Assembly: GCA_017512885.1 (NCBI GenBank)
Contig: JAFWEP010000044.1
Coordinates: 1-51,606 of the forward strand
DNA from: Erysipelotrichaceae bacterium
GTDB taxonomy: Bacteria; Bacillota_I; Bacilli_A; Erysipelotrichales; Erysipelotrichaceae
DNA: 51,606 bases
Reading direction: 5' to 3'
Shown piece by piece: positions 28,285-31,909 of the stretch. The notes under the pieces are model-generated. The model worked only from the letters and a program-made list of their open reading frames with translations. It was not told where the DNA came from and made no database searches. A program made the translations under genes and the position numbers. Each line of letters opens with the position of its first letter. Position 1 is the first letter of the stretch.

Positions 28285-30141
28285 TCAGGACCTCTGCTTC
28301 TTGGCCAGGAAACGGAAGTGTCCTTTCTCTGTAAGGAAGAGATCGAAGTATCTGCCCAGCCAGAGGGTGACGTCCCCTTCTTTTTCCGTGACATAGTAGA
28401 TCGTATTCTGGGAGCGCAGCGTCTGCAGCGTCTTTGCCGAAGGATGGCCGTAGCGGCCGTTGGCTGAGATCAGGGCAAAGGAAGGATCGCATTCCTGCAG
28501 GAAAAGCGGATCGGAAGAGGTATCGGAACCGTGATGGGCTGCCTTCAGGATATCGATCTTCAGAGGTCCGTATTCCTGCACGAGTTCTCTCTCCCGGGCA
28601 GCGGAGATATCGCCGGTAAAAAGGAAACACAGTCCGTCGGCTTCCAGATAGTAGATCAGAGAATCATCGTTGGGATCGCCGGTCACCGGCAGCGGCAGCC
28701 AGGAGAAACGGGCGTTTCCCTTGCAGAGATCTTCCCCTTCGGTGATCACCTTCCCGATCCGCAGATCCTTCTGCAGAGCTTCGGCATTGCCGGCATGATC
28801 GTCATCGCTGTGCGTGATGATCAGCCAGTCCAGCGAAGAAACGCCCTTCGCATCCAATGCTTCACGCACCGCCCGGTAATGATAGGGATCGCCGGTATCG
28901 ATCAACACCCGCAGATGAGCCAGCCGGTCTTCGTAATAGATCGCATCGCCGTGACCGACGTCGATCATCGTCAAAGAAGCGGAAGGCACCTGCAGGCGCA
29001 GCAAAAGGAAGACCACCGGTACCAGCAAAGACAGCCGCTTCTGTTCCAGCCGGAAGACATAGAGGAAGACGATCAGGAAGAGGATCCAGAACGGCGAGAG
29101 CCTCCCCTTTACCGCTAAAGGGATGCTGCCGAACAAGGCGAAGAAACGGTCTAAAAGCAGGACATAGTTCTGCGGCGGGAAGCCTCCGCAGGCTGTAAGG
29201 AAAGACAGCAGATAGATCCCGATGCCGATGCTGTCGATGAGTGGAAAGGCCAGGAAACGCAATAGATCGATCCGGGCAAAGAGATAGGACTGCAGCATGA
29301 TCACCAGCGTATCTTTCCGCAGGCGATAGGAAAAACAGTTCAGCAGGCGGAAGATCAGTGCCAGCCGCAGTGATTGCCGGAAGAGACTGTAAGGATCGCC
29401 GAGCAGCAGCAGGAGCAAGACGAAGGCAAAATGCTCCTGGCCCTTCTTTCCCAGCCGTTCTGCCAGCAGGTCGCAGACCAGCAGCAACAATAACGGATGA
29501 TAGCCGAAGAGACAGAGATGGATGTAGAAGAAGAGCGGCAGGAATTCCGCCAGATAGGGGTATTTGCGTTTCAGTTTCCGGCATCCCCGGTAAAGACCAA
29601 AGCCGAACAATGCTGCTTCCGCCGGAAGCTCGTAATTGCTTTCACCGCAGAGGAAACGGCGCAGATAGCGTTCACAGTCTCTTCCGTATTGGGCAAAAGA
29701 TCCCTCCAGGATGCCGCAGCGTGTCCCCGCTGAGATCACTTCCGCATCCGTGATCCGGATGCGATGGGTGATGCCGCGAGTCAGAGATGCCGTCTCCCCT
29801 GTCTTCTTCAGATCTTCGGTCTCAGTGATCCGGTAGCGGATATCCGTGTATGAAGGGATCTCTGCAGAACACTCAGCCAGCAGATCTCCGTGATCACTGC
29901 GCAGGAGATAGCCCTTTTCACTGCTGCCGGACAGCACGGTCGCTGTTTCCGCCGGAGGCAGCGAGAAAGAGAGACGGCAGAAGAGCGCCCCGCAGAGCAG
30001 GAGATAAAACAGGAATTCTCTCCTGTCCCAGAACAGCAGGAAGATCCCGCCGAGCGCCAGCACCGGATAAGAACGGCTGTACAGGAAGAGCACAGCCGCC
30101 AGCACCGGCCTAAAGAGAGATGTAGGGAAGTATCTTCGCAT
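28285..30141 (-). CDS. comEC: ComEC/Rec2 DNA-uptake channel protein (divergent, short)
   Basis: Membrane protein that forms the channel for single-stranded DNA uptake in natural transformation. 618 aa against about 776 in Bacillus. Order: N-terminal hydrophobic segments (1-60), a short soluble OB-like part (about 65-160), a polytopic competence region (about 165-400), and a C-terminal metallo-beta-lactamase domain with MIDVGHGDAI, ITHSDDDHAGN and KAAHHGS. The usual competence-domain motif of the form HLLAISGLH is not recognisable. GGGAGG lies 6 nt before the ATG within the end of comEA (32-nt overlap). The nuclease-type domain keeps its metal ligands. Confidence 0.88.
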   Translation of the reverse strand: MRRYFPTSLFRPVLAAVLFLYSRSYPVLALGGIFLLFWDRREFLFYLLLCGALFCRLSFSLPPAETATVLSGSSEKGYLLRSDHGDLLAECSAEIPSYTDIRYRITETEDLKKTGETASLTRGITHRIRITDAEVISAGTRCGILEGSFAQYGRDCERYLRRFLCGESNYELPAEAALFGFGLYRGCRKLKRKYPYLAEFLPLFFYIHLCLFGYHPLLLLLVCDLLAERLGKKGQEHFAFVLLLLLLGDPYSLFRQSLRLALIFRLLNCFSYRLRKDTLVIMLQSYLFARIDLLRFLAFPLIDSIGIGIYLLSFLTACGGFPPQNYVLLLDRFFALFGSIPLAVKGRLSPFWILFLIVFLYVFRLEQKRLSLLVPVVFLLLRLQVPSASLTMIDVGHGDAIYYEDRLAHLRVLIDTGDPYHYRAVREALDAKGVSSLDWLIITHSDDDHAGNAEALQKDLRIGKVITEGEDLCKGNARFSWLPLPVTGDPNDDSLIYYLEADGLCFLFTGDISAARERELVQEYGPLKIDILKAAHHGSDTSSDPLFLQECDPSFALISANGRYGHPSAKTLQTLRSQNTIYYVTEKEGDVTLWLGRYFDLFLTEKGHFRFLAKKQRS

Positions 30142-30583
30142 ACTTCGCCTCCCCGATCCCCGAGACTTCCTTCAGTTCTTCCAGAGAATGAAAACCATGG
30201 TGCTGTTCACGGTATTCCAGGATCTTCCGGGCTGTGCTCTCGCCGACTCCCGGCAGCCGCATCAGTTCTTCCAGTGTCGCTGCATTGATCGAGATCGGCC
30301 GCTCTTCTTCCGGCTTGCGGGGGATCACGATCACTTCCTTGTAGCTGAGCGTGCGGTTCAGCGCCAGGTCGGAAAGATCCGCATCGGCGGTGATCCCGCA
30401 GAGTTCCAGCAGATCCGCGAGCGTTGCTTCCCGGGGCACATGATAGACGCCTTCTTTGCTGACCTCACCCTTGATCTCGACGGGGATCGTAACGCTCTTC
30501 TCGAAGCTGCCGTAACGTACTTGATGCGTCTCCAGCAGCAGGAAAACAGCCAATACCAGCAGTACCGCGATCTTCTTAAACAT
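30110..30583 (-). CDS. comEA: Competence DNA receptor ComEA
   Basis: Membrane-anchored dsDNA receptor for transformation. 157 aa: an N-terminal transmembrane anchor (about 3-18), a SLBB-like domain (VEIKGEVSKEGVYHVPREATLADLL), then tandem helix-hairpin-helix motifs at the C-terminus (INAATLEELMRLPGVGESTARKIL and FHSLEELKEVSGIGEAKYAKI). ATG 30583 has GGAG 6 nt upstream; a GTG lies directly before it. It overlaps the unknown upstream gene by 8 nt and comEC by 32 nt, so all three are co-translated. Confidence 0.93.
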   Translation of the reverse strand: MFKKIAVLLVLAVFLLLETHQVRYGSFEKSVTIPVEIKGEVSKEGVYHVPREATLADLLELCGITADADLSDLALNRTLSYKEVIVIPRKPEEERPISINAATLEELMRLPGVGESTARKILEYREQHHGFHSLEELKEVSGIGEAKYAKILPYISL

Positions 30584-31382
30584 CACGCTCTCCGCTCACG
30601 CTCACCGTGATCTTGTATTCTTTTCCGGCAACGTAATAGATCACCGGGTATTCGCCCGGCACAGAAAGATCGACCGCTGAGTAACTGACACTGACCTGCT
30701 GGTTCGTACGCAGATGATCGATCAGGGCGTGGATCAGCTCTTCTTCGCTGCTTCCTACCGGAAGCGAGACATCCTGCACATTCTCAAAGATGAAGACTTC
30801 TTCCGGGATATAGACTTCGACTTCCTGTTCTACCTCTTCCCAGATGACCTGCGGCTCTTCCTGTACGATCGTCTCTTCGTGCACTTCCGTGCGGATCTCC
30901 GGCTGCGGAGACTCAGTCTCTACAGGCGGCAGCGTTGCAGGCGGTTCAGCATTGACGGACGGTCTCTCGTTTGAAGCCGGGATCTCTGCTGTATCACTTC
31001 TTTCTGTCTCTTCCCTCGATTCTGTTGCGGGCGTTTTCTCTTCCGGTTCCGAAAGATCTTCTGCAGCAAACTCTTCCTGAGTTTCCGGCAGAGCGATCCT
31101 GCGGCAGTTATCGGAAAGATCACAGACTTCGAGCCAGGTCTTATCGCCTTCCTCAAAGACTTTATAGACCGTTTCCTGCAGGTCCCGGAAACGGAAACAG
31201 CGGCGGATCTCTTCTTCGCTTCCGGAGTGCGGTTCCTCCAGCATGTAGATCAAAGGCGCCAGGCGATCCTGACGGGTATAGGTCTTTGAATTCTCCTGCA
31301 GCAGCTGCAGACAGCGGCCAAGTGAGAGATCGGTCAGTGCCAGCAAGCCTATAGCCAGAAATAGTTTCTTTTTTCCAAACAA
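30576..31382 (-). CDS. Unknown secreted or membrane-anchored protein in the comE operon
   Basis: I do not recognise this 268-aa protein. It has an N-terminal signal/anchor (KKKLFLAIGLLALTDLSLG), a region of about 70 residues with several cysteines (CFRF, VCDLSDNC), a long Pro/Glu/Thr/Ser-rich acidic linker (about 110-185), and a C-terminal part that ends like a small Ig-like cell-surface domain (VDLSVPGEYPVIYYVAGKEYKITVSV, residues near 235-262). The start is TTG 31382, the first codon after a terminator-like hairpin whose loop holds GGAGG. The gene overlaps comEA by 8 nt. A role at the cell surface in DNA uptake is suggested only by position. Confidence 0.7.
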   Translation of the reverse strand: MFGKKKLFLAIGLLALTDLSLGRCLQLLQENSKTYTRQDRLAPLIYMLEEPHSGSEEEIRRCFRFRDLQETVYKVFEEGDKTWLEVCDLSDNCRRIALPETQEEFAAEDLSEPEEKTPATESREETERSDTAEIPASNERPSVNAEPPATLPPVETESPQPEIRTEVHEETIVQEEPQVIWEEVEQEVEVYIPEEVFIFENVQDVSLPVGSSEEELIHALIDHLRTNQQVSVSYSAVDLSVPGEYPVIYYVAGKEYKITVSVSGERDV

Positions 31383-31407
31383 AATAAGCAGGTCCTCCCT
31401 GCTTATT
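31383..31407 (-). terminator. Terminator of the alaS-greA operon, with the next gene's ribosome-binding site in its loop
   Basis: AATAAGCAGG (31383-31392) and CCTGCTTATT (31398-31407) form a perfect 10-bp stem with a 5-nt loop. On the minus strand the loop and first stem bases read GGGAGGAC, and TTGTTTGG follows the stem; that TTG is the start codon of the next gene. The tail is only moderately T-rich, so read-through into the comE operon is plausible. Confidence 0.65.
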
Positions 31408-31435
31408 GTTTCCGTGAAAAACTGAAATTCCTCCC

Positions 31436-31909
31436 CTATTTGACGGAAAGGATCTTTACTTCGTACGGATCATCGACCTTGACCAGGACGGTAGAACCGA
31501 CTTTCTGATCCAGGATCGCTTCCGCCAGCGGCGTAGCGTTGGACAGACGGCCGTTGAGCGGGTCTGCTTCAACGGAACCGACGATCGTATAGGTCAGGAT
31601 GTTTCCGGTGTCCATCTCTTCCAGTTCGACGGTAGAGCCCATACGGACATAGCGTGTAGACTTCTTGGATTCAATGATCTTCGCATTGCGGATCATGTGC
31701 TCCAGTTCTTTGATACGTGCTTCGACCTGTGCCTGACGTTCTCTGGCGGCATCATAGTCGGCGTTTTCCGAAAGGTCACCCTGTGCACGGGCAGCTTTCA
31801 GGTCTTCGATAACTTCATTCCGGGTCACATGAACGAGTTCATGCAGTTCATTATTCAGATCCGCAAGACCTTCTTCGGTGACTAGAAATACATCTTTCTT
31901 TTCTTCCAT
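31436..31909 (-). CDS. greA: Transcription elongation factor GreA
   Basis: Binds RNA polymerase's secondary channel and triggers transcript cleavage in backtracked complexes. 157 aa: N-terminal coiled-coil hairpin with the acidic tip (ARAQGDLSENADYDAARERQ, Asp and Glu included), and C-terminal FKBP-like domain (STVELEEMDTGNILTYTIVG and SNATPLAEAILDQKVG). AGGAGG precedes the ATG. It is the last gene of the alaS operon. Confidence 0.97.
   Translation of the reverse strand: MEEKKDVFLVTEEGLADLNNELHELVHVTRNEVIEDLKAARAQGDLSENADYDAARERQAQVEARIKELEHMIRNAKIIESKKSTRYVRMGSTVELEEMDTGNILTYTIVGSVEADPLNGRLSNATPLAEAILDQKVGSTVLVKVDDPYEVKILSVK

Follow-up and report, generated by a model that had tools for sequence, protein, structure and literature searches.

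The DNA-uptake (com) operon described here probably insulates itself, with a terminator-like hairpin at its head acting as an insulator around the start point of the operon's own competence promoter. The hairpin, the covariation of its stem and its position heading the operon in 31 of 40 genera were all computed, as were a promoter motif that other competence genes also carry and the overlap between promoter and hairpin.

On the minus strand of the window (the whole 51,606-nt stretch of Erysipelotrichaceae DNA that was analysed), genes that we take to be mltG and udk are followed by greA, X, comEA, comEC and a presumed holA. The greA open reading frame (31436-31909, with a TAG stop at 31438-31436) scores above the cut-off of the NCBIfam GreA equivalog NF001263, comEA (30110-30586) has SLBB and helix-hairpin-helix domain matches, and comEC (28285-30141) matches Lactamase_B and, below its curated cut-off, TIGR00361. 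Gene X (30576-31382), the first of the operon, encodes 268 amino acids from a TTG start (31382), and its reading frame overlaps by 11 bp that of comEA, which starts with GTG at 30586 and has a further ATG at 30583. The 53 nt that separate the greA stop codon (31436) from this TTG contain the hairpin (31383-31407, minus strand), ten perfect pairs closing a GAGGA loop (AATAAGCAGG-GAGGA-CCTGCTTATT), with a folding energy of -13.5 kcal/mol (z -5.4) that none of 200 dinucleotide shuffles equalled. The X start lies immediately 3' of the stem, within a T-rich tail (TTGTTTGG, 31375-31382); the structure thus has the stable stem and following U-rich tract of an intrinsic terminator, with a weak tail of 5 T in 8. 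The last stem base and four loop bases make up the GGAGG ribosome-binding site (RBS; 31394-31398). It sits 11 nt from the TTG, a spacing that exceeds the usual and that reaches about 16 nt in relatives of the X type. The gene, its overlap with comEA, and a terminator-like hairpin adjoining the start codon with the RBS in its loop were already recognized in the initial annotation, and each was borne out. The suggestion that folding might also hide the RBS was not supported for the window, where GGAGG remains about 0.8 unpaired in the folded hairpin and is exposed in the loop, though the RBS lies in a hairpin arm in some relatives (loci L051, L121, L235 and L248). Because its RBS is left in the loop, we regard the window as working like the RBS hairpins that insulate against read-through rather than as a member of that class.

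The predicted competence promoter spans 31404-31432 on the minus strand, from beside the greA stop codon into the 5' arm of the hairpin. Its -35-like element (AGGAATTT, 31425-31432), which resembles that of a SigH-type competence promoter, begins 3 nt past the stop codon, and the last four bases of its putative -10 region (CACGGAAACAATA, 31404-31416; the exact register is inferred) fall within the hairpin arm. The site as a whole has a score of 6.5, where the 99th percentile of the background is 5.85. The model behind this score was trained only on upstream regions of 20 comGA and 22 dprA genes, which share the motif TAGGAWTTT-N8-11-nnCG[T/A]ATA; 10 of 30 PF00437 loci and 6 of 28 dprA loci (other ATPases, broken genes, second copies or unclear starts) were left out, and a first training run that caught upstream T tracts was discarded in favour of retraining with another seed and narrower gaps. 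Among 103 com heads, by which we mean junctions between greA and the first com gene, 39 exceeded the background 95th percentile and 25, including that of the window, the 99th (310 background starts), leaving 64 below the 95% threshold. The greA stop codon runs into TAGG[AT] or TAAGG[AT] at 36 of 104 com heads, compared with 35 of 454 other stop codons.

In the window genome, where the box reads AGGAWWWT-N11-16-ACAATA, a pattern based on the sites of the window, comGA and dprA occurs 11 times in 2.1 Mb, and its reversed form never; three of these sites are the pattern's own sources, such that eight are independent finds. These eight include recA (Pfam RecA), three ORF6N-type genes (one of them checked) and a glycosyltransferase, so that one motif is common to comGA, dprA, recA and X of the same genome. 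The pattern occurs once in the window and in none of 100 shuffles. The three ORF6N genes (L304, L305 and L306) are near-identical and antirepressor-like, and as carriers of the motif they suggest a possible link of competence to prophage genes. Two further sites (L299, G000:C6:26847-26875; L303, G000:C30:86517-86542) lie upstream of short hydrophobic reading frames with flanking long-range inverted repeats, which we take to resemble type I toxin mRNAs.

A SigH-like sigma factor that could serve this promoter was found in eight of the nine com-positive genomes examined, the smaller sigma factors of the ninth (G009) having been left unclassified, and in none of three com-negative congeners, an absence that carries little weight, as the completeness of the three is 82-88% and two of them have no RpoD match. 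The candidate in the window genome (G000:C49) matches TIGR02859 at 3.7e-19 and 69.0 bits, below the curated SigH cut-off of 294.8.

The initial annotation had proposed that entry into the com genes may be gated by read-through from greA together with RNA folding. In its strict form, this account would leave X, comEA and comEC with no promoter of their own, reached only by greA transcripts, and make the hairpin an attenuator that hides or shows the RBS. The hairpin, its T tail and the RBS in its loop are real, greA and the com genes share a strand across a short gap, and a sigma-70 promoter scan returned two sites against 2.6 in shuffles, none of them at the hairpin. We nevertheless consider such gating quite unlikely, since a motif common to comGA, dprA and recA sits at exactly this spot and predicts a start inside the hairpin.

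Judged from the position of the -10, transcription in the window would begin between 31397 and 31402 on the minus strand, within the hairpin. For the family, initiation was assumed 6 nt after the -10 core, and heads with a weak or misplaced motif were left out. The motif is correctly positioned in 37 com heads, the hairpin accompanies it in 32, and all 32 have their predicted start within the hairpin. Mean folding energies across heads with both motif and hairpin are -14.1 for read-through RNA and -4.5 for promoter RNA. In the window, RNA that starts at 31407 or upstream folds the full hairpin, whereas RNA from 31402 retains a 5-bp stem (-8.9), and RNA from 31401 or 31400 reaches only -4.7 or -2.4; for starts from 31403 on, the base of the stem beside the T tail is nearly always open. 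Given a predicted start inside the hairpin, the stem formed by read-through RNA should be missing from RNA made at the promoter. The same geometry also bears on whether the hairpin might instead be an RBS switch, a thermometer or ligand-responsive structure acting on the com mRNA itself rather than on read-through RNA. Many heads of the comEA type do enclose both RBS and AUG in the hairpin, and the hairpin persists in some heads that have a separate terminator. The predicted start, however, removes a median of 7 of the 10.5 pairs of the 5' arm, a pure RBS lock would not need the T tract that follows the 3' arm, and an Rfam scan of the window's 27-36 kb gave no match; we therefore hold a switch of this kind to be very unlikely.

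The association of hairpin and operon head extends across the family. One fixed test was applied, which asked for a terminator-like stem-loop of -7 kcal/mol or better that has 5 T in 8 and overlaps the start region. Such a hairpin was present at 83 of 104 junctions between greA and the first com gene, whether that gene is X or comEA; by comparison, 20 of 1040 dinucleotide shuffles passed, as did 9 of 316 gene starts taken as background from 400 kb of four relatives. Since the genomes are related, these counts are not independent events. The 104 junctions remained after 25 of 129 had been dropped, either because no com gene was recognized after greA or by hand, and the 103 used for the promoter analysis derive from the same 129 with a slightly different hand list. 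Of the 21 junctions that failed the test, some appear by eye to have mis-picked starts and others to be without a hairpin. Most relatives that lack X have a comparable hairpin at comEA as the first gene, and its loop frequently encloses both RBS and AUG, while comEA starts internal to operons that contain both X and a further gene, Y, have none (0 of 7; L089, L097, L105, L116, L118, L119 and L121). The hairpin thus belongs to the operon head and not to X specifically. We had also considered it a by-product of codons for hydrophobic N-termini, and rejected this explanation because the internal comEA starts are without it. At three loci (L099, L101 and L102, in genomes G166, G168 and G169) the operon looks decayed, with comEC remnants after greA, comEA not found there, and the hairpin retained.

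Stem sequences are lineage-specific, yet they covary. In X-type stems, 98.2% of cells are paired and six of ten pairs changed on both sides; in comEA-type stems, the corresponding figures are 96.4% and six of 11, and no shuffle matched either (0 of 500 each). Both alignments were selected sets, of 25 loci chosen for a short-loop hairpin (A1) and 13 same-register sequences (A3), respectively; a mixed comEA-type alignment (A2) was discarded for its inconsistent stem register.

These comparisons allow a simpler origin to be weighed, namely that the hairpin is an ordinary greA terminator pressed against the next gene by genome compaction, with its overlap of start codon and promoter incidental. 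Three com-less congeners of the window genome (G001-G003), 82-88% complete, do retain a plain terminator followed by holA at the same place after greA, with X, comEA and comEC absent, and com heads with no separate terminator upstream of the promoter nearly all have the embedded hairpin (28 of 30). Such overlap is rare at other starts, however, even at those with a close upstream gene on the same strand (3 of 77), and the hairpin is still found in three of seven heads that do have a separate greA terminator. We judge compaction alone to be an unlikely explanation. Other competence operons vary in this respect: most comGA genes (13 of 18) have a separate terminator, and 13 of 19 dprA genes have neither a separate terminator nor a hairpin. 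In relative G009, by comparison, promoter and RBS lie within one hairpin at comEA, comGA and dprA, which are all three competence operons found there by the pattern.

Under the self-insulation that we favour, RNA reading through from udk and greA would hold both arms of the hairpin and, according to the computed fold, form the full structure beside the T-rich tail, where transcription would stop. The predicted fold would also take in the RBS or the start codon in many relatives, although this is not clear for the window. Once the competence promoter is fired by a SigH/ComX-like sigma factor, RNA would instead begin inside the 5' arm, the stem next to the T tail could then not form, and polymerase would presumably pass on to make X, comEA and comEC. 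More generally, we consider it roughly an even call that this logic holds across the family, where an alternative-sigma promoter, a terminator-like hairpin and a translation start would share about 60 bases, and the point at which polymerase starts would alone set whether a dead (read-through) or live (competence) RNA results. On this broader account, the logic would have been kept while the stems were replaced by lineage, and would have moved with the operon head as X, and then Y, entered before comEA.

Sequence comparisons also show X to be a real gene linked to comEA. A search at E <= 0.01 found matches in 26 of 272 family genomes, mainly over the Ig-like end; in genera g3, g56 and g65 most of the matches are directly 3' of greA, several with an adjoining comEA, and a profile built from 28 orthologues placed X at 30 of 129 greA junctions, most relatives being without it there. 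Linkage to comEA, on which the initial annotation had staked its proposal, holds in three other genera, in which orthologues lie between greA and comEA. Moreover, orthologues begin directly after the same hairpin, which supports the TTG assignment in the window. The membrane anchor and acidic Pro/Glu-rich linker attributed to X are plain in its translation. The Ig-like tail fared less clearly, in that its match to Pfam Big_3 (PF07523) falls below threshold (17.7 bits against a gathering cut-off of 21.2), while the model of an orthologue does contain an Ig-like C-terminal domain. That model (19 sequences, pLDDT 83) predicts a helix at residues 2-27, a beta domain at 40-97, a disordered segment at 105-131 and the Ig-like domain at 135-203; among solved chains, the Ig part of internalin K aligns best (Z 8.2, rmsd 2.0, 67 residues), and the C-terminal domain of the model aligns with a Big_3 domain of solved structure at Z 6.3 (rmsd 4.4, 71 residues). 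A common predicted fold is no proof of common function. A single-sequence model of X was uninformative (pLDDT 44), a profile search of PDB sequences returned four chains up to E 10 with no credible match, and peptide patterns sought in the genome contigs gave 65 stretches, none confirmed as X.

X may thus be described as a conserved, fast-changing and putatively surface-located protein that heads a DNA-uptake operon. Its position, and its absence together with the com genes from the congeners, point to a possible role in DNA uptake as a membrane-anchored surface protein; in one of these incomplete com-negative genomes (G001), no match to DprA or the family of ComGA was found. In genera g3, g56 and g65, the operon also encodes, between X and comEA, the surface protein Y, of 590-910 amino acids with SpaA folds (L093:2304-4088, L106:2216-4639, L116:2274-4997, L089:271-2946, and an 863-aa reading frame in L119), one example of which has a sub-threshold thioester domain. 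At L125 (G235, genus g66), three unrelated genes of 194, 533 and 836 amino acids lie between greA and comEA.

If self-insulation is correct, it would let a bacterium place a silent but inducible operon immediately after a busy housekeeping gene without needing a protein to do so, and competence regulons of gut bacteria could be sought by the sequence signature that it provides. The same greA-com junction is present in Holdemania filiformis DSM 12042, H. massiliensis, Anaerorhabdus furcosa, Traorella massiliensis and Floccifex porci, and both the promoter motif and the candidate sigma factor become testable in cultured strains that share it. What X does in its place at the start of the operon can now also be asked.

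Hairpins that distinguish read-through from promoter RNA have precedents. In the transposase genes of Tn10/IS10 and IS50, read-through RNA folds the RBS away and RNA from the element's own promoter does not; unlike the com head, these are mobile elements without a link to competence. In the phage T4 I-TevI gene and other phage homing-endonuclease genes, as described in the available portion of one account, transcripts that come from upstream promoters, and no others, fold the RBS into an RNA structure, and the gene's own late promoter is placed such that its RNA cannot form the structure (PMC2988022). The likeness to the com head lies in an own-promoter RNA that is without the arm used by read-through RNA, but the phage structure is not described as a terminator in that portion, whereas the com head has a T tract after its hairpin, a competence-type promoter, a DNA-uptake operon and, in the window, an RBS in the loop. 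For sigG of Bacillus subtilis, the portion of the source available to us proposes that a hairpin of at least 20 bp blocks translation of spoIIG read-through RNA and cannot form in RNA from PsigG (PMC5942855). That block is translational, while the com hairpin is shorter and terminator-like, and its architecture is conserved across a family with lineage-specific stems. With respect to the promoter, the placing of competence genes under one alternative-sigma box resembles the SigX/ComX box of streptococci, given as TACGAATA (PMC6328492, in part), and the SigH-driven competence of Lactobacillus sakei (PMC3364868, in part). Several family members have TACGAATA or TACGTATA at their com heads, but the box of the window genome differs from the streptococcal one and its sigma candidate falls below the curated SigH cut-off. 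A fusion of such a box with a terminator hairpin was not found in the available portions of these two sources, nor was own-promoter RNA lacking an arm, combined with a terminator at a competence operon, found in searches of open-licence papers. The insulation logic itself is therefore already known from I-TevI and proposed for sigG, and what appears to be new, as far as this comparison reaches, is its combination with a terminator-like hairpin at a competence operon.
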